Both the position numbers and the translations under genes were made by a program. 31,890 bases of DNA from a virus, in the IMG/VR virus record IMGVR_UViG_3300042898_003879, positions 1 through 31,890 of that record, one strand, 5' to 3'. Positions 1,409 to 27,346 of the stretch are shown here, one piece after another. The stretch's first letter is position 1; every line of letters starts with the position of its first letter. The notes below the pieces were generated by a model. It was not told where the DNA came from, did no database searches, and saw only the letters and a list, made by a program, of their open reading frames with translations.

Positions 1409-1438
1409 TTGACAAGCACCCTTCGGATCGGCGATTGT
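1409..1438 (+). promoter_or_regulatory. Candidate early promoter P1 upstream of the primase gene
   Basis: TTGACA (1409-1414), the consensus -35, is followed after 18 bp by GATTGT (1433-1438), a partial -10. A start near 1445 would place the hairpin at 1445-1463 at the very 5' end of the transcript. A second promoter with the same arrangement precedes 4421; the distance from TTGAC to the shared CGGTGAGTGAGACCG block is 38 bp here and 37 bp there. Confidence 0.5.
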
Positions 1439-1444
1439 AGGTAA

Positions 1445-1463
1445 CGCGGTGAGTGAGACCGCG
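1445..1463 (+). promoter_or_regulatory. 5'-leader hairpin with GAGTGAG loop (copy 1)
   Basis: CGCGGT (1445-1450) and ACCGCG (1458-1463) form a perfect 6-bp stem around the loop GAGTGAG. The second copy (4377-4395) has the same loop but a stem of GTCGGT/ACCGAC, with paired substitutions that keep the pairing. That pattern points to an RNA structure. It lies at the predicted 5' end of the primase mRNA and could protect the message or bind a regulator. Confidence 0.55.
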
Positions 1464-1521
1464 ACAACCAGGTGATCGGATGCTACCACAGTCCGATCTC
1501 CGAAGGCAAACGGAGAGAACA

Positions 1522-4296
1522 ATGAGTCGCGCAGACGTGGAGTCGCGGTTTCGCAGGGATGCGGAGTCGCTTGGATTGACATTCCCTCGAGGAGTCGAGG
1601 ACGACGACAAGTGGCACACAGTCCCGCTCGAGGGCGGGGGGAAGGGTTGCTACCGCTACACGTCGAACGGGAAACCTCGGGGCCTGTTCCGCCGATGGTC
1701 GGGAGACCCGGTCGCTTGGGTCTGCCCCGACGAGGACTGGGCGGCGATCAAGTTCGAGGAGCGGACCAACCGTCACGAGTACGTCGACAAGCTCGACCGA
1801 GCTCGCCGAGAGAAGGAGGGCGCGGACGCCGCGAAGGAGACAGCCCGCGAGGAGGCGGCGAAGGCCGCTCGGGCGGTCTGGGCGGAGGCGGTCGAGGCCG
1901 ACCCGCAGCACCCCTACCTTGTCCGAAAAAAGGTCAAGGCGTGGGGGTTGAAGATGAACTCGGACGGCGACCTCCTAGTTCCGCTGTCGCGAGGGACAGG
2001 CAACCTCCGAGGGTACCAGAGGATCCAAGCCCGCGAGGGAGCGGCCAAACTCTACGCAAAGGGGATGGACCGCTCGGGTACCTACCACCGGATCCCCGGT
2101 TCGCGAGACATCATCGCAGTCGTCGAGGGGTACGCGACAGGCGCGACGGTCGCCCAGGCGACAGGGTGGACGGTCCTCTGCGCGATGGACACGTCGCAGC
2201 TCGCGACGGTTGCGATCATGGTCCGTTACGCCCTCCCCGAGGCGCGACTGGTGATCGCAGCGGACGACGACTGGAAGAAGGCCGACAACGCGGGCCTACG
2301 AGCTGCGCGGAAGGCCGCGAGCGAGGTGGGCGGAGTGGTAGTGTCGCCGGAGTTCGGCCCCGACCGAGGCGAGAAGGAGACCGACTGGAACGACCTCCAC
2401 GTCCGAGCGGGTCTGGGCGAGGTTCGGCGTCAACTCCTCGGGGCCTTGGAGGCGGGGGAGCCCGACTTGGGGGAGACAGATAGCCCTCCCGAGGATACCC
2501 CCGTCGAAACGGCCCCTCCTAGAGGCCTCTCGACGCGCCTCTCCGACGGAACCATGGTCCAACTCCCGAGTGGGTACGTCCTCGACGACGGGAGCGGGGT
2601 CGCCCGCGAGGCCTTCGACCGCAACGGAGCTCCGATCAAGGTTCGGGTCTGTTTCCCGCCGGTGTTCCTCGTCGGCCGTTCGCTCGACATCGCGACCCAG
2701 TCCCACTTCGTCACCCTTGCGACGGGTTGGCCCGCCTTGGGGTCTCGGATGCTCCACGTCCCGCTCGAGGCGGTAGCGTCGACCCGGTCGATCGTTGCCC
2801 TTGCGTCTCGGGGCCTCCCAGTGACCTCCAACACGGCGAAGGGAATGGTCGACTACCTCGACGCAGCTCGTCAACTCTCCGAGGTCACCTTGACGAGCCT
2901 CTCCCGCCTGTCGCCGACGACGGGTTGGGTCGAGGGTTCGTTCGTCCGAGGGTACGATGAAGTCCACCGGCCTACGGGGTCCGCCGCCGATCTTCACATG
3001 GCCCCGCTCGAGGGAGAGATGCGGTCGAAGGTCGAGGCGGTCCGAGCTCGCGGCGACCTCTCGACGTGGATCGAGACGACGGAGCGGGTCTTCGAGCTCC
3101 ATCCTCGAGTCGCCCTTGCCTACGCGGCCGCGGCCGTCGCTCCGTTGATCGAGGTCATCGGTTGCGAACAGTTCGTCCTGGACGTTTGGGGGGAGTCGTC
3201 GGGAGGAAAGTCAACCTCCCTCAAGTGGGCGGCCTCCATCTTCGGAACTGCGGGGTTGGTCGGCCAATGGAACGACACAGGGACCGCGGTCGAGAGGGTC
3301 GCGGGATCGATGCGGGGCCTCCCAGTCTTCCGCGACGAGACGCAGCACATGATCGACAACTTCTCGGTCGTCTCCGCCTTCGTCTACGCGATGACACAGG
3401 GCCGAGGGAAGGCGAGGGGAACGGTTACGGGGACCCAGACTACGGTCGAGTTCCAGAACATCGCCCTCTCGACCGGTGAGTCGTCGATCTCGACCATGGG
3501 AAAGCAAGCGGGGACGGTCGCCCGACTGGTCTCCGTCAAGGCGCCCATCTTCGGGGACAACTCCTCGGCGACGGCGGACTTGATCCACGAGGTCACCGGG
3601 ATCTACTCGAGGCACCATGGCACCGCAGGCCAACGGTTGATCGCGTTCCTCGTTGCACTGGGAGACGCCGACAAGGCCCGCCTCGCGTCCGAGTACCGCG
3701 AGCTCGCCGTGAAGGTCTACGACTACGCGAAGAAGTCACACCCCGCCCGAGACACGACGCGGAGAGTGTCGAACCACGTCGCCGCGATGGAGCTCGCCCA
3801 CGGTTTGTTCTGCGCGGCCGTGGGGGTGAAGTGGAAGACCCGAGGCCCGTTCGGGTTGTTCTCGGCCGAGGACCTCTACAGCACCTTCGATCAAGCGAAG
3901 GACGCGGACAAGCCCTCCCTTGCGATGGACGCCCTCCTCGCGTGGTTCGCTTCCAACACGAAGCGAGTTCAATACCACTCGACGGCCCCCGACTCGAACC
4001 TCTCGACGATCGGGAAGGTTTGGAAGACCCAGGACGGCACCTTGCGAGCTGCGATGCTCCCCCACGAGGTCGAGAAGTTCCTCGGCGAGCGAGGGTACGC
4101 GGTCGACTCTGTCATCGCAGCGATCGTCGAGAAGGGTTGGATCGAGAAGTCGACCGACCACCGGCGAACGTGGAAGGTGCGCCTCGGCGGCGGCGACGTT
4201 CGGGCCTACGTCCTCTCCGCCGAGCTGTCGAAACAGGTAGGCGAGTTCGAGAAGGGGCCTCCGGTCATCGACTCTCGATCGGAGCCTTGGGACTAG
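1522..4296 (+). CDS. Primase-helicase: TOPRIM plus DUF927 (AAA+) protein
   Basis: This 924-aa replication protein has three parts. The N-terminal part has the WHTVPLEGGGKG...GKPRGLFRRW pattern of plasmid and phage DUF927 primases. A TOPRIM domain at about residues 195-300 shows VVEGYATGATV (Glu near 201), an Asp cluster in LVIAADDDW, and DWNDLH. A DUF927 helicase-type ATPase follows, with Walker A GESSGGKST near 557-565 and an acidic VFRDE motif near 600. The last ~100 residues may be a winged helix. It should prime and unwind DNA at the adjacent iteron region; no separate helicase, primase or DNA polymerase is recognised in the genome, so host polymerase is probably recruited. Start ATG 1522 is preferred over an in-frame ATG at 1453 because GGAGAG lies just upstream and 1453 overlaps the predicted promoter leader. 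Confidence 0.9.
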   Translation: MSRADVESRFRRDAESLGLTFPRGVEDDDKWHTVPLEGGGKGCYRYTSNGKPRGLFRRWSGDPVAWVCPDEDWAAIKFEERTNRHEYVDKLDRARREKEGADAAKETAREEAAKAARAVWAEAVEADPQHPYLVRKKVKAWGLKMNSDGDLLVPLSRGTGNLRGYQRIQAREGAAKLYAKGMDRSGTYHRIPGSRDIIAVVEGYATGATVAQATGWTVLCAMDTSQLATVAIMVRYALPEARLVIAADDDWKKADNAGLRAARKAASEVGGVVVSPEFGPDRGEKETDWNDLHVRAGLGEVRRQLLGALEAGEPDLGETDSPPEDTPVETAPPRGLSTRLSDGTMVQLPSGYVLDDGSGVAREAFDRNGAPIKVRVCFPPVFLVGRSLDIATQSHFVTLATGWPALGSRMLHVPLEAVASTRSIVALASRGLPVTSNTAKGMVDYLDAARQLSEVTLTSLSRLSPTTGWVEGSFVRGYDEVHRPTGSAADLHMAPLEGEMRSKVEAVRARGDLSTWIETTERVFELHPRVALAYAAAAVAPLIEVIGCEQFVLDVWGESSGGKSTSLKWAASIFGTAGLVGQWNDTGTAVERVAGSMRGLPVFRDETQHMIDNFSVVSAFVYAMTQGRGKARGTVTGTQTTVEFQNIALSTGESSISTMGKQAGTVARLVSVKAPIFGDNSSATADLIHEVTGIYSRHHGTAGQRLIAFLVALGDADKARLASEYRELAVKVYDYAKKSHPARDTTRRVSNHVAAMELAHGLFCAAVGVKWKTRGPFGLFSAEDLYSTFDQAKDADKPSLAMDALLAWFASNTKRVQYHSTAPDSNLSTIGKVWKTQDGTLRAAMLPHEVEKFLGERGYAVDSVIAAIVEKGWIEKSTDHRRTWKVRLGGGDVRAYVLSAELSKQVGEFEKGPPVIDSRSEPWD

Positions 4297-4338
4297 GATC
4301 GAAGAAAACGACACAGGGGGCGAAAAGTGGTGTCAATA

Positions 4339-4370
4339 ACCTTGACGCTCCGTCAAGGTGCGGTTACCTA
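4339..4370 (+). promoter_or_regulatory. Candidate early promoter P2 with operator-like palindrome
   Basis: TTGACG (4342-4347) is followed after 17 bp by TACCTA (4365-4370). The -35 lies inside a perfect inverted repeat: ACCTTGACG (4339-4347), centre CTC, then CGTCAAGGT (4351-4359). A protein bound there would cover the promoter, so it looks like an operator; as a terminator it lacks a T run. The predicted start near 4377 coincides with the leader hairpin. It would drive the recombination genes separately from the primase. Confidence 0.5.
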
Positions 4371-4376
4371 GTCGGG

Positions 4377-4395
4377 GTCGGTGAGTGAGACCGAC
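4377..4395 (+). promoter_or_regulatory. 5'-leader hairpin with GAGTGAG loop (copy 2)
   Basis: GTCGGT (4377-4382) pairs with ACCGAC (4390-4395) around the loop GAGTGAG. It is the partner of the hairpin at 1445-1463. The 15-bp core CGGTGAGTGAGACCG is identical, while the outer stem pairs differ in a compensated way. It sits at the predicted 5' end of the P2 transcript, 26 bases before the first start codon. Confidence 0.55.
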
Positions 4396-4420: not shown

Positions 4421-4615
4421 ATGATGACCCCCGCCGAGATTGCCGCCTTCGCCGCGACCTGCACCGTCAACCAGATGTCCGAGAAGTTCCTCGCCCTCGA
4501 GGCCGCGAACGACCAGGCGACGATCGACGCCTTGATGAAGCTCCTTCGCCCCCGCTTCGCCCGCTACAACCCCGGGTTCATCGGCAAGCCCGAGCGTCGC
4601 CGCGCCGCCTACTAG
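4421..4615 (+). CDS. Small hypothetical protein (64 aa)
   Basis: This small protein follows promoter P2 and opens the second early operon. It starts MMTPAEIAAF, is mainly helical and amphipathic in its first 45 residues, and ends in a basic Arg-rich tail (KPERRRAAY). No catalytic motif is visible and no family is recognised. Start choice is between ATG 4421 and the next codon, ATG 4424; the upstream GAGAG is a weak ribosome-binding site. A basic tail on a small helical protein fits a nucleic-acid or inhibitor role, but that is only a guess. The gene is kept because codon choice matches its neighbours and it fills the space between promoter and next leader. Confidence 0.6.
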   Translation: MMTPAEIAAFAATCTVNQMSEKFLALEAANDQATIDALMKLLRPRFARYNPGFIGKPERRRAAY

Positions 4616-12280: not shown

Positions 12281-12859
12281 CTAGACCTTGGGAGTGAGTC
12301 GGCCGACGTACTCGGGGTCGAACCATCCGACCGTCCGAACGATGTCCGTCGAGTAGGACCACTTGTGGAGTTTGGAGTAGACGCCGTCGCCCTCGCGAGA
12401 GCCCGCGCCGTTCGTGTTGCCCTCTACGGTGTGGAACCCGTCCTCGTCAACGGCGACCACGATCCCGGTGTGACCCTGTACCCACGTCCCCTTTCGGGCG
12501 GAGATCGCCCCCGCCCCATCCTTCGCCCGAACCCAGATCATCCCCGGCCGGACCTTGGACTGGAAGTCGACCTGCTCGGGGGTCGTGAACCCCTCGGGGC
12601 GCATCTTCCGCGTTCCCCGATGCCACTGGGTAATCGCCGACCCACTACACCACAGAGGCGCGACCACGAGACCCTTCGCCTCCTTGATGCAGTAGGCGAC
12701 GAACGCCGCGCACCATGGCGATCCCGGCGAGAGGTTGACCGTCTTTTGGTACTTCTCCACGTCGGGGCCTCGGTTCATTCCCCCAACCTCGCGGACGTGT
12801 TTCGCGTCCTCGGCCATGGCGACCTCGATCAACTTCTCGGCGGGGGTCTTCTCGGTCAT
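12281..12859 (-). CDS. CHAP-type endolysin (peptidoglycan amidase/peptidase)
   Basis: This 192-aa protein shows the CHAP/NlpC-P60-like cysteine peptidase pattern: SPWCAAFVAYC with nucleophile Cys50, QGHTGIVVAVDEDG with His130, then FHTVEGNTN with Glu146 and Asn148 as the third catalytic or supporting residues. There is no signal peptide, so it needs the neighbouring holin for export. No separate cell-wall binding domain is evident, the length being taken up by one catalytic domain. It would cut peptide bonds in peptidoglycan to free progeny. The stop lies 8 bases before the holin start. The catalytic fold is well supported; the exact bond cut is unknown. Confidence 0.88.
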   Translation of the reverse strand: MTEKTPAEKLIEVAMAEDAKHVREVGGMNRGPDVEKYQKTVNLSPGSPWCAAFVAYCIKEAKGLVVAPLWCSGSAITQWHRGTRKMRPEGFTTPEQVDFQSKVRPGMIWVRAKDGAGAISARKGTWVQGHTGIVVAVDEDGFHTVEGNTNGAGSREGDGVYSKLHKWSYSTDIVRTVGWFDPEYVGRLTPKV

Positions 12860-18476: not shown

Positions 18477-20318
18477 CTAGTACCTTTCGACTGCCTCGCG
18501 GAACATGTGTCGCGATTTTGCGATCGCTTGCGCCTTCGAGAAGGCTCGGCCGATAGACTCCTCGTCCGCGAACGCCGCGTCAACCTGCAGGTTGTACGAG
18601 GTGTTATTCGTCACCGGAGAGGGAGTCGCCGCCGTCGCCGGTGTCGAGGTCGTAGTCTTCTTCCCAGAGGCGCCTAGCGCGGTCGCAGTCGCGAACGCAG
18701 CGATAGCTCCGGCGGTGAGACCCGCCGACCCGGCGAAGTTGCCCGAGAAGAACGCGACCGAGGCCATGGACAGCATCTGTTCGCCGAGGGCCGAGATCAC
18801 CATACCGACCGACTTTTGACCGATCTCGGCCATGGTCTCGCCGTTGCCGATCGCCGCCCCGACCATCCTCGCTTGGCTTGCAATGTACTTGTCGTAGAAG
18901 GCCGAGTGTGCATCCTCGGTCTTCTTCGTCGCGTCCTCTACCGCACCCATACCGGTGACCGTGTCCTCGACGACCCCATTCCAGATCGCCTTGACCTCCT
19001 CTCCGAGGATCTGGAAACTGGTTTTGATGTCACCTTTGCCGAACAAGATCCGCGTGAGACCCATTCCGAAGGTCTCGTAGGATGCTTCGATCGTTTTGGC
19101 CAAGGCGTCGCTTTCCACCTTCGCCGCCGCCGCCGCAGCTTCCGCCCTTGCCTTGGCCGCAGCGACCGCCTCGCTGATGAGGTCCTTCGGAGGCTCCTTC
19201 GGAGGCTTAGTACCCCCGCCCGTCCCAGTCGTCGCGGGTTTCTCCGGGTTCCAGAGGCGGAAGTTCAACTCCTCGGCCTTTTGGACGAAGTTCTCTCGAC
19301 GGCGGAGAAGCTCGTTTTGAGTGTCGATCTCGTCCTTCGTCATCCCCGCGTTGTTTGCGAACGCCTGGGCGCGGGCGTCCGCCTGGGCGATGAACATTTG
19401 AGTCTTGAACTGGGAGTTCTCGAGGAGCATCTCTCGAGCTCGAGCGTCGACGTCCCTCTGCGACTGTCTCACGCCGTCATTGATGATCCGCAGCTCGCGA
19501 TCGGCCTTGTCTCGAGTACTCGCAATCGAGGAGGCGAATAGCAGTTCCGCCGCCTTCGCCGCCGCGAGCTCCGCCGCGGCGTTCGCCCGATAAGCGCGGT
19601 TCTCGTCGTTGACTGCGATCTGATGATCGATCGCGGCCAACGTGGCCTCGTACTCCATCCTCGCGGTCTCTTGTTTCGAGATGACAACATCGCCGAGAGT
19701 CTTCCCGAGTTCGTCGTAGGCGATCTTTTGATCCCGAATCGACTGCAGGGTTCCGTCCAAGGCCTCTCGATACCTCGTCTCGTTCTCCGCCGCCTTCGAC
19801 TCGGCGAGGGAGAGACCGTCGACCGATCCTGCGACCGCCCAGATCCCCTCGGACACGAGACGAAGGGGTAGCAGGACCGCCTGCATGGCAACCTTGACCC
19901 CATCGAAGATCGTCGAGAGCCGCTCGCCCATCTGCTCGACCGAACCGCCTCCCAGGACGGCCTCCGCGAAGGCTCCTTTGACCGCGAACAGACCTTTCTC
20001 GGTCTCGTCCCAGACCTTCATTCCCTCGTCGCCGAAGGACTTGAACAATGATTCGGCCGACCCGAGGAAGGCCTCGACGCCGACCTTCGCCGCGCCCAGT
20101 GCGATACCAACACCGCCGATCGCTGCGATCGCCTTGGGACCGCCGATCCTCTCGACGAGAGACCCGGCGGCGATGTCCGCCTTGTCGGCCACCTCCTTGA
20201 GTTGGTCCGAGAGCTTCTTCCCCGAGGTGACCATCTTCGCCATCCCGTCGCGCCCCTTGTCGAGGGCTCCGACGAGTCCACTAGAGTCGCCGTCGATCTC
20301 CGCTACGGTCTTCGCCAT
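18477..20318 (-). CDS. Tail tape measure protein (613 aa)
   Basis: The protein sets tail length and is threaded through the tube. It shows an N-terminal Ser/Asp/Gly start, a long helical, heptad-rich middle (about 150-420) with many Ala/Glu/Lys/Arg, a hydrophobic stretch at about 59-90 (AIAAIGGVGIALGAAKVGVE) and a second near 520-545 (GSAGLTAGAIAAFATATALG), separated by a Pro/Thr/Gly linker (TTGTGGGTKPPKEPPKD) near 370. At about 1.5 angstrom per helical residue it predicts a tail of roughly 90 nm, short for a siphovirus. It follows the gpG/gpGT frameshift pair by 3 bases. Confidence 0.88.
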   Translation of the reverse strand: MAKTVAEIDGDSSGLVGALDKGRDGMAKMVTSGKKLSDQLKEVADKADIAAGSLVERIGGPKAIAAIGGVGIALGAAKVGVEAFLGSAESLFKSFGDEGMKVWDETEKGLFAVKGAFAEAVLGGGSVEQMGERLSTIFDGVKVAMQAVLLPLRLVSEGIWAVAGSVDGLSLAESKAAENETRYREALDGTLQSIRDQKIAYDELGKTLGDVVISKQETARMEYEATLAAIDHQIAVNDENRAYRANAAAELAAAKAAELLFASSIASTRDKADRELRIINDGVRQSQRDVDARAREMLLENSQFKTQMFIAQADARAQAFANNAGMTKDEIDTQNELLRRRENFVQKAEELNFRLWNPEKPATTGTGGGTKPPKEPPKDLISEAVAAAKARAEAAAAAAKVESDALAKTIEASYETFGMGLTRILFGKGDIKTSFQILGEEVKAIWNGVVEDTVTGMGAVEDATKKTEDAHSAFYDKYIASQARMVGAAIGNGETMAEIGQKSVGMVISALGEQMLSMASVAFFSGNFAGSAGLTAGAIAAFATATALGASGKKTTTSTPATAATPSPVTNNTSYNLQVDAAFADEESIGRAFSKAQAIAKSRHMFREAVERY

Positions 20319-24096: not shown

Positions 24097-25113
24097 CTAC
24101 GAGATACCCGTAGCGAGACGCGCCCACTTGTTCGACGTACCGCCGAGCACCTGGACGGCGTAGTCCGACTCGATGTACATCGCGATACCGCGGGGGTTCT
24201 GCGAGTCGTAGGAGATGACCTGTCCGAGAGCCGCGTTCGGGTCGGGCGTGAAGGTCTGAATGAAACCCGAGTCGCCGTTCGCCTCGGCCACCTTGTAGAG
24301 GGCGACGATACCGTCCGTCATGACCGGCGTTCCCGTCTGGGAGGCCGCCGAGGGGAGGAACTGCGGGAGGCAGACGAAGTCAACCGGGCAGATCAGCTTC
24401 GAGGCGAAGAAGGCTTTGAGCTGCGACCAATCGGCCGCGCCGGTGCGGGCCTGCGCGAGAGCGCCGCCGACCGTTGCCGCCGCGATGGAGTAGCCCATCT
24501 GCTGGACTTCGTTCTTCTGCAGGAGGGCGTTCGCCGTGTTGAGGTTACACACCGCAACCCAACGGCCCGAGAAGATGTCCGCGCCGTCCGCCGCCGAGGC
24601 GAGGAGGAGGGAGTTGAAGGTCGACTGGAGGGCCGCGGAGGCCGCGCCGCCGTTCGTCACCGCGAGGTTCGAGCCGTAGTTGCCCTGCGTCGAGAGGGCG
24701 CTACCGACGACCGCCGCGTGATGCTGTGCGCCCTGCGTCTGAAGCTTCATCGCGAAGACAGCCGTGATGTCCTCGGCGCGAGCCGCGAACTCTTGAATCT
24801 GCTTCAGCGTGAAGACCTGGTGACCCCAACGGTAGACCGAGGAGTTGTAGGAGCCGCTCGCGATGCGGAGACCACCGGGGACCGCGGGCGTATCGAGCTC
24901 GATCGGCTTGATGCCCTGGGCGCCGGTCGTCGGGAGGGCGTCATTCTCGGCGAAGTAGTGGTAGAAACCGGCGCGGGTCATGACCTTGACGATCGGCGAG
25001 AGCTCGAGCGAGACCGCCGAGTCCGAACCGCCGCGGTAGAGGGAGATCCGCTGCAGGATTCCAGGGCGCAACGCGCCGGAGTTGACGCCAGTTGAGGGGA
25101 AAGCGAAGGACAT
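24097..25113 (-). CDS. Major capsid protein (338 aa)
   Basis: The main shell protein, expected to have the HK97 fold. It lies after scaffold and decoration genes and before connectors. The sequence is Ala/Gly/Ser-rich with an N-terminal arm, a long spine-like helix around residues 100-150 (FTLKQIQEFAARAEDITAVF) and beta-rich P-domain-like parts; ALGQVISYDSQNPRGIAMYI near the end fits the last strands of capsid proteins. No cysteine-based crosslinks are apparent (few Cys). ATG 25113 has GGAG upstream. Proteolytic trimming by the nearby protease is possible but no site is assigned. Confidence 0.75.
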   Translation of the reverse strand: MSFAFPSTGVNSGALRPGILQRISLYRGGSDSAVSLELSPIVKVMTRAGFYHYFAENDALPTTGAQGIKPIELDTPAVPGGLRIASGSYNSSVYRWGHQVFTLKQIQEFAARAEDITAVFAMKLQTQGAQHHAAVVGSALSTQGNYGSNLAVTNGGAASAALQSTFNSLLLASAADGADIFSGRWVAVCNLNTANALLQKNEVQQMGYSIAAATVGGALAQARTGAADWSQLKAFFASKLICPVDFVCLPQFLPSAASQTGTPVMTDGIVALYKVAEANGDSGFIQTFTPDPNAALGQVISYDSQNPRGIAMYIESDYAVQVLGGTSNKWARLATGIS

Positions 25114-26785: not shown

Positions 26786-27346
26786 TGTACCACCTTCGGA
26801 GAGAGAGACCCCGCGCATCTCTGCGACCGGGACCTGTTGAGTTTTGATCTGGGGGATGGTCACGAACGAGACCTCGCCGATCGCGAACGGGTACTCGGGG
26901 ACCTCGTCGAGTTCCGTCCCCGCCCAGGCGCGAATGTTCGGCGAGACGTAGGGGATCTCGCCGTCGTCGAACGCCGCCGCCCACTTGGGGGACGTGAGGT
27001 CGAGACCGCCGTAGAGCATCTCCGAGGTTGGTTGGGCGATGCCATGGGCCGCGGCCTCCGACTGGGTCAAGGAGACCACCCGTCGAAGGTACCCCGCCGC
27101 CGTTCCATTCTTGTCGTGTTCGATCGCCACCGGAGGCGCGAACGAGAGGAGCCAACGTTGAACCGAGGCGACCGCGTCCTCCCAACGAAACCGCAGCTCG
27201 TCGGGGTTCGTCTCCTCGGCGTCGAAATCCCACTTCATTCCGTGGGCGTGGATCACACCTCGAGGAACGAGCGAGACCCACCGGAGGCCGGAGTCGTCGC
27301 CCAGGTCGATCGAGACAGTGCGGAGTTTGAGACGGGAGGAACGCAT
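26108..27346 (-). CDS. Prohead protease with C-terminal scaffold, Mu gpI-like (412 aa)
   Basis: The N-terminal ~180 residues match the Mu-like prohead protease (Mu gpI) pattern: VAIEHDKNGTAAGYLRRVVSL with catalytic His77, IPYVSPNIRAW with Ser135, and GEVSFVTIPQI, written here in parts VAIEHDKNGTAAGY and IPYVSPNIRAW. The C-terminal ~225 residues are a charged coiled coil (LQKAAQEIEEKKTEEDATL, then SEVKRLKADLSAARRAV), typical of a scaffold core. The protease removes scaffold from the prohead before packaging. An internal start (26785) probably yields free scaffold. ATG 27346 is the first gene after the hairpin gap. Confidence 0.8.
   Translation of the reverse strand: MRSSRLKLRTVSIDLGDDSGLRWVSLVPRGVIHAHGMKWDFDAEETNPDELRFRWEDAVASVQRWLLSFAPPVAIEHDKNGTAAGYLRRVVSLTQSEAAAHGIAQPTSEMLYGGLDLTSPKWAAAFDDGEIPYVSPNIRAWAGTELDEVPEYPFAIGEVSFVTIPQIKTQQVPVAEMRGVSLSEGGTMYKMTMEECASYCKENGMDEMAIAALISKLFPELHNAAHAATPELAETAPEADPEALEGAALELQKAAQEIEEKKTEEDATLSEVKRLKADLSAARRAVALANVKVALGNRKVSPQTETMLADAFIVGGGKFEALLKDLSTPPARPSAPVARTIAPMGRNASSVSLAEVMGRPEKFAELSEDQQWKLITELSEKEKCHPAFAASWITFGETPSTVVEQRATKGIF

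Follow-up and report, generated by a model that had tools for sequence, protein, structure and literature searches.

The window, by which we mean the whole stretch of DNA analysed (31,890 nucleotides), is a complete circular phage assembly of about 31.8 kb with a terminal repeat of 127 bp. The features that matter here lie around its primase-helicase gene and in the early operon that follows it. Clade names are used for the window with its near relatives (A and B) and for more distant relatives (C to H).

1409..1414, + strand: TTGACA, the -35-like element of early promoter 1; it is conserved between clades A and B, and its geometry recurs in C, D and H
About 1432-1438, + strand: weak candidate -10 element CGATTGT of promoter 1
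1445..1463, + strand: hairpin copy 1, CGCGGT-GAGTGAG-ACCGCG, at about +2 from the predicted start (folding, relatives, pair statistics)
1474..1498, + strand: second hairpin of leader 1, GATCGGA-TGCTACCACAG-TCCGATC, from folding
1480..1521, + strand: possible 14-codon upstream open reading frame MLPQSDLRRQTERT, with a ribosome-site-like AGGTG in front, read from the sequence only
1522..4296, + strand: primase-helicase, first gene of early transcript 1, with Toprim_3, DUF927 and HTH_56 (Pfam, PHROGs)
4339..4359, + strand: perfect dyad ACCTTGACG-CTC-CGTCAAGGT, which spans the -35 of promoter 2 and contains TTGAC-N5-GTCAA
4342..4347, + strand: -35-like element TTGACG of early promoter 2, with a 17-nt spacer to TACCTA at 4365-4370
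4377..4395, + strand: hairpin copy 2, GTCGGT-GAGTGAG-ACCGAC, at about +1 from the predicted start (folding, relatives, pair statistics)
4421..4615, + strand: first gene of early transcript 2, encoding a protein of 64 aa
7588..7902, + strand: fast-evolving 104-aa protein with a Cro/SinR-like helix-turn-helix (HTH) model

Copy 1 of the hairpin is found 5' of the primase-helicase gene, and copy 2 between this gene and the next early operon, where the genes 3' of the hairpin encode the 64-aa protein, a 114-aa protein, a RecE-like exonuclease and RecT. The non-coding gap between the terminase and primase genes (904-1343) is densely filled with iteron-like GTGGGAAC and GTTCCCAC repeats on both strands and is likely to be a replication origin adjoining the primase gene; at the matching place in clade E there are repeats of the GGTAACAGG type. 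In the phage collection searched, no isolate of this phage group with more than 60% terminase identity was found, and the major-capsid candidate at 24097-25113 had zero matches there.

The 15-mer CGGTGAGTGAGACCG occurs at exactly two sites in the window, 1447-1461 and 4379-4393, both on the + strand, and a search of the phage's own genome gave no third copy. The loop GAGTGAG occurs once more, at 12292, with a weak 4-bp stem. An earlier note on this DNA had described the twin 15-mers, and the exact-match search reproduces both copies and their distances of 38 bp after TTGACA (1409) and 37 bp after TTGACG (4342). It had also described the hairpins, and folding bears this out, in that the loop is identical in both copies and the two 6-bp stems differ yet pair fully. 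Rfam covariance models gave no match in the window at the gathering threshold and none in 1380-1530 at E up to 1, and literature searches returned no description of this hairpin element. The hairpin is a real RNA element and one that has apparently gone undescribed so far.

Transcript starts were predicted at 7 nt past the -10 element, with a 17-nt spacer assumed. With starts placed in this way, all hairpin copies have a common orientation and begin at about +1 to +9 of transcripts predicted from TTGAC-17-(-10)-like promoters. Clade A has weak -10 hexamers, those of C and D (CATAAG, CATATT, CATCAT, TAGTAA) being better, and the -35 of promoter 2 reads TTTACA in clade B. A generic sigma-70 scan of the window called no promoter at promoter 2; the promoter of copy 1 in clade D was called by the promoter scan. 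At copy 1 of G013 an upstream TTGACG was picked by the script, and the geometry of clade D is to be taken from G014 and G021. For the twin early promoters proposed for the window, it is recurrence in other clades that supports the geometry, the match in the window itself not being strong.

Five contigs reached via the primase are near relatives. Three of the five carry the window loop GAGTGAG and belong to clade A, one of them being a short contig that contains just copy 1; the genomes with both copies and this loop are the window, G003 and G004. In clade B (G001 and G002; primase 81-82% identical) both hairpins are present with the loop GAGCAAG. When A and B are compared, each copy aligns to its own orthologue on either side. 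Because each copy keeps orthologous flanks, both loops are, as judged from these alignments, switched jointly from A to B (GUGA to GCAA), and whole leaders are not exchanged. The same copy-by-copy orthology excludes, for A versus B, a recent duplication of the whole leader as the source of loop matching. In copy 1 of clade B an inner T-A pair has become C-G, which is a compensated change, and the outermost C-G pair is lost. The gene at 4421..4615 does not set the loop: G002 has a 100% identical version, and G001, with a different gene in its place, has the same loop as G002. A kissing or antisense partner was also rejected, as the loop complement CTCACTC is missing from the early strand in five of five genomes checked, the counts in themselves being uninformative. 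Scanning viral contigs with the exact 15-mer gave, beyond the near relatives, matches in unrelated contexts, and a half-degenerate promoter-2 pattern gave known relatives and unrelated contexts only.

Another 24 contigs were reached through a terminase alignment, and their gene order is the same wherever the early region is present. Primase identity in these relatives is 23-41%, and genome searches by primase gave only distant primases, at about 30-40% identity. In clade C (six genomes: G006-G009, G011, G022) the hairpins occur at the same two places with the loop CGACAA and with other arms, which in G007 are GAGCCG/CGGCTC versus CGGCAG/CTGCCG. The genomes of clade D (G013, G014, G021) each have three promoters with hairpins and the loop ATTGCAC, from which one base is deleted in some of the copies in two genomes, giving TTGCAC or ATGCAC; the stem is GGGCG/CGCCC in G013 versus GGGCA/TGCCC in G014, and that of copy 1 is broken by two A-A mismatches. 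For clade H (L181, with about 57% primase identity) copy 1 is GCGGAT-GGACAAG-ATCCGC, and the contig stops before copy 2. Clades E, F and G, which belong to this phage group too, gave no matched loops. Within clades A-D every genome that is complete enough carries the hairpin at both places. Altogether, loops match within the genome in 14 of the 14 genomes of clades A-D that have at least two copies, apart from the single-base deletions in two genomes of clade D. When the conservation of loop and pairing was checked in the relatives, as the earlier note had suggested, pairing was kept, down to about 30% primase identity, and the loop was found to be common to the copies of one genome and to differ between clades.

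Two further hairpins were seen in these relatives, and their coordinates refer to the orientation that puts the early genes on the + strand. In L158/G007, at 18581, GCTGC-CGACAA-GCAGC followed by ATTTTG precedes another early gene, without TTGAC in front. In clade E genome G010, at 27269, promoter 2 is followed by the hairpin GACGGG-AACCCCCTAG-CCCGTC and has in front of it GCTCTCACACC, whose sequence appears similar to the boxA of lambda.

The hairpins were misaligned by MAFFT, and pairs were therefore counted by script on arms registered by hand. Over 15 distinct copies, with copy 1 of clade D excluded for its mismatches, 73 of 75 pair cells of the inner stem are paired, and at each inner pair position between two and four standard pair types occur. 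When the 3' arms were dealt at random, 51% of cells were paired on average and the observed value was reached in 0 of 20,000 trials, which is not a strict probability, since the statistic ignores the kinship of the copies. Between the copies of one genome 2-3 of 6 arm positions differ in most cases (1 of 6 in G006 and G008), while the loop is identical. A strict scan was defined by TTGAC, 36-50 nt from there to the loop, at least 5 Watson-Crick pairs, and the same loop of 6-7 nt twice per genome. In the window it returns this single pair on the early strand and none on the other; across the genomes it returns the expected pairs only, with the opposite strand empty, and zero pairs are found in 200 block-shuffled genomes per genome. 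The filter overlooks some true pairs, for example those of B and D.

An operator for a dimer would keep its arms constant and allow change in the centre, and the hairpins show the opposite. Palindromic DNA operators, with a dimeric repressor bound to inverted repeats over both early start sites, would be a classical arrangement, in which the operators are phage-specific and sit at two early promoters, and the Cro/SinR-like HTH protein is detected in all clades that hold the region. The arms that a dimer would read, however, vary between the copies, the half-sites not being conserved even within one phage, whereas the non-palindromic centre is fixed, and the copies always have the same orientation. 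There is, moreover, a better candidate for an operator in the separate dyad TTGAC-N5-GTCAA, which genome-wide is confined to promoter 2 in A and B and to promoters 2 and/or 3 in D. One arm of this perfect dyad doubles as the -35 of promoter 2, and the G002 version is TTTAC-N5-GTAAA; the dyad is a probable DNA operator, distinct from the RNA hairpin. The 104-aa HTH protein has no Pfam or PHROGs match and its Foldseek matches are weak, all with E > 1. It is a candidate DNA-binding regulator, and such a protein would more likely read these dyads than the hairpin. We consider it improbable that the hairpins are themselves DNA operators. As crossover sites of a recombinase, with inverted arms and a spacer of 7 bp that must be identical for exchange, they would have both matched spacers and variable arms, if one argues from general knowledge of tyrosine recombinases. 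This explanation is scarcely credible: no integrase or recombinase is among the proteins searched, exchange would cut out the primase gene, and the fixed position of the site behind a promoter would be left unexplained.

The earlier note had proposed that the element serves 5' protection or the binding of a regulator. GNRA-type loops are stable in general, and a hairpin at the predicted 5' end could shield a message from decay. Protection alone, however, requires neither identical loops within a genome nor their joint change from A to B, and as the whole explanation generic protective hairpins are highly improbable. The binding of a regulator is the part of the proposal that holds up, as the simplest reading of a conserved hairpin.

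We therefore favour an RNA signal that is read in trans, because loops match within a phage and differ between phages. The hairpin copies would be at the extreme 5' end of both early transcripts, as their starts are predicted, and their loop would be recognised by a trans-acting factor, which the phage itself probably encodes. Both copies would then need a loop that fits the factor, and the sequence of the stem would be free as long as pairing holds. Binding of the factor to the nascent RNA would, as the most likely outcome, alter transcription of the early operons by antitermination or attenuation; as the main alternative outcome, the same binding would control translation or mRNA stability. 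That an RNA hairpin is read in trans we hold to be likely. For the reading as a whole, with hairpins at both early 5' ends, a loop read by a trans factor and early transcription altered, the chances appear slightly better than even, and for the specific statement that the effect is on elongation or termination of transcription they fall somewhat below even. Of those early proteins of the window that were compared across clades, none was confined to the clades that obey the loop rule.

An effect on transcription is suggested because terminator-like stems with TTTTT follow hairpin 1 in clades C and D, where they lie between the hairpin and the ATG of the primase. Downstream of the hairpins of clades A, B and H no T-run terminator was found. 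At the place that corresponds to 1474..1498, clades C and D have these terminator-like stems and clade H has a different stem without a T run. In G002 and G004 the upstream open reading frame in the same leader ends on a stop codon that shares ATGA with the primase start, and in the window one extra A joins it in frame to the primase. Extension of the primase N-terminus from an in-frame GTG of the loop was rejected, as one base disrupts the frame in near relatives.

The main competing explanation is that an RNA-binding protein of phage or host acts as a translational repressor, or determines how stable the early messages are, and leaves RNA polymerase unaltered. Translational operators of phages such as T4 are hairpins in the 5' region that are bound by a phage protein and overlap the ribosome site; the position of the present hairpin is, by contrast, fixed with respect to the promoter and not to the start codon. 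Such a protein would account for loop matching as well, copies 2 and 3 in clade D end only about 18 nt 5' of the ATG, and T4 provides precedents of phage proteins that bind their own messages (a review is PMC3014915). In leader 1, on the other hand, some 60 nt or more separate the hairpin from the start codon, which is too far for a direct block of the ribosome, and the terminator-like stems in the leaders of C and D point to transcription. On balance, control of translation or stability alone is unlikely, if far from negligible.

The signal proposed to be read in trans may be compared with the nut sites of lambdoid phages (lambda, P22, phi21). There too, a short hairpin lies near the early transcript starts (here predicted), at least two copies are present per phage, and the specificity of the loop differs between phages (PMC11480772, PMC12550061). 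The boxB of P22, GCGCUGACAAAGCGC, has a GNRA-like pentaloop, GACAA, to which the N peptide binds (PMC11480772, PMC12550061), and GACAA is found in the loops of clades C and H. By sequence alone, GUGA (A), GCAA (B) and GACAA (C, H) fit a GNRA-like loop and AUUGCAC (D) does not. The hairpins differ from nut sites in that they begin at predicted +1 to +9 with loops of 6-7 nt, and in that both copies share a strand, within early operons arranged in tandem. Near either hairpin of the window there is no boxA in the sense of YGCTCTTW with up to 1 mismatch; clades C-E have a CTC-ACACC-like sequence 5' of copy 2, and the predicted start falls inside it. Pattern search in clades A-D, which divergent N proteins would escape, gave no N-like arginine-rich protein, save an implausible reverse-frame open reading frame. 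The comparison suggests a variant, in its logic, of phage boxB-type signals, the mechanism being one that we infer. It is a tentative and rather doubtful proposition that this is a new antitermination-like system of uncultured phages, with a lone 5'-terminal hairpin, no boxA and a partner other than N, in which loop and partner have been re-matched repeatedly with the copies in step.

The put sites of HK022 lead to another possibility, a protein-free RNA element that acts directly on RNA polymerase. There too, a pair of RNA elements, putL and putR, follows two early promoters, and no phage protein is needed (PMC9378689). The put elements are, however, about 70 nt long with two stem-loops and share sequence, whereas leader 2 here folds into one short hairpin, only the loop is shared between the copies, and this loop varies by phage. 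Switches of the loop among related phages are more easily reconciled with a phage-specific partner than with a polymerase surface that is fixed, and an element of this kind is quite improbable here.

If the reading in trans is correct, phage-specific lock-and-key control of early operons by RNA would extend beyond the lambdoid phages, to a phage group without a close isolate in the collection searched. The loop switches between clades would form a natural series that comes with paired internal controls. They would also provide new orthogonal RNA-protein pairs, of which the protein partner would be findable via its co-variation with the loop.
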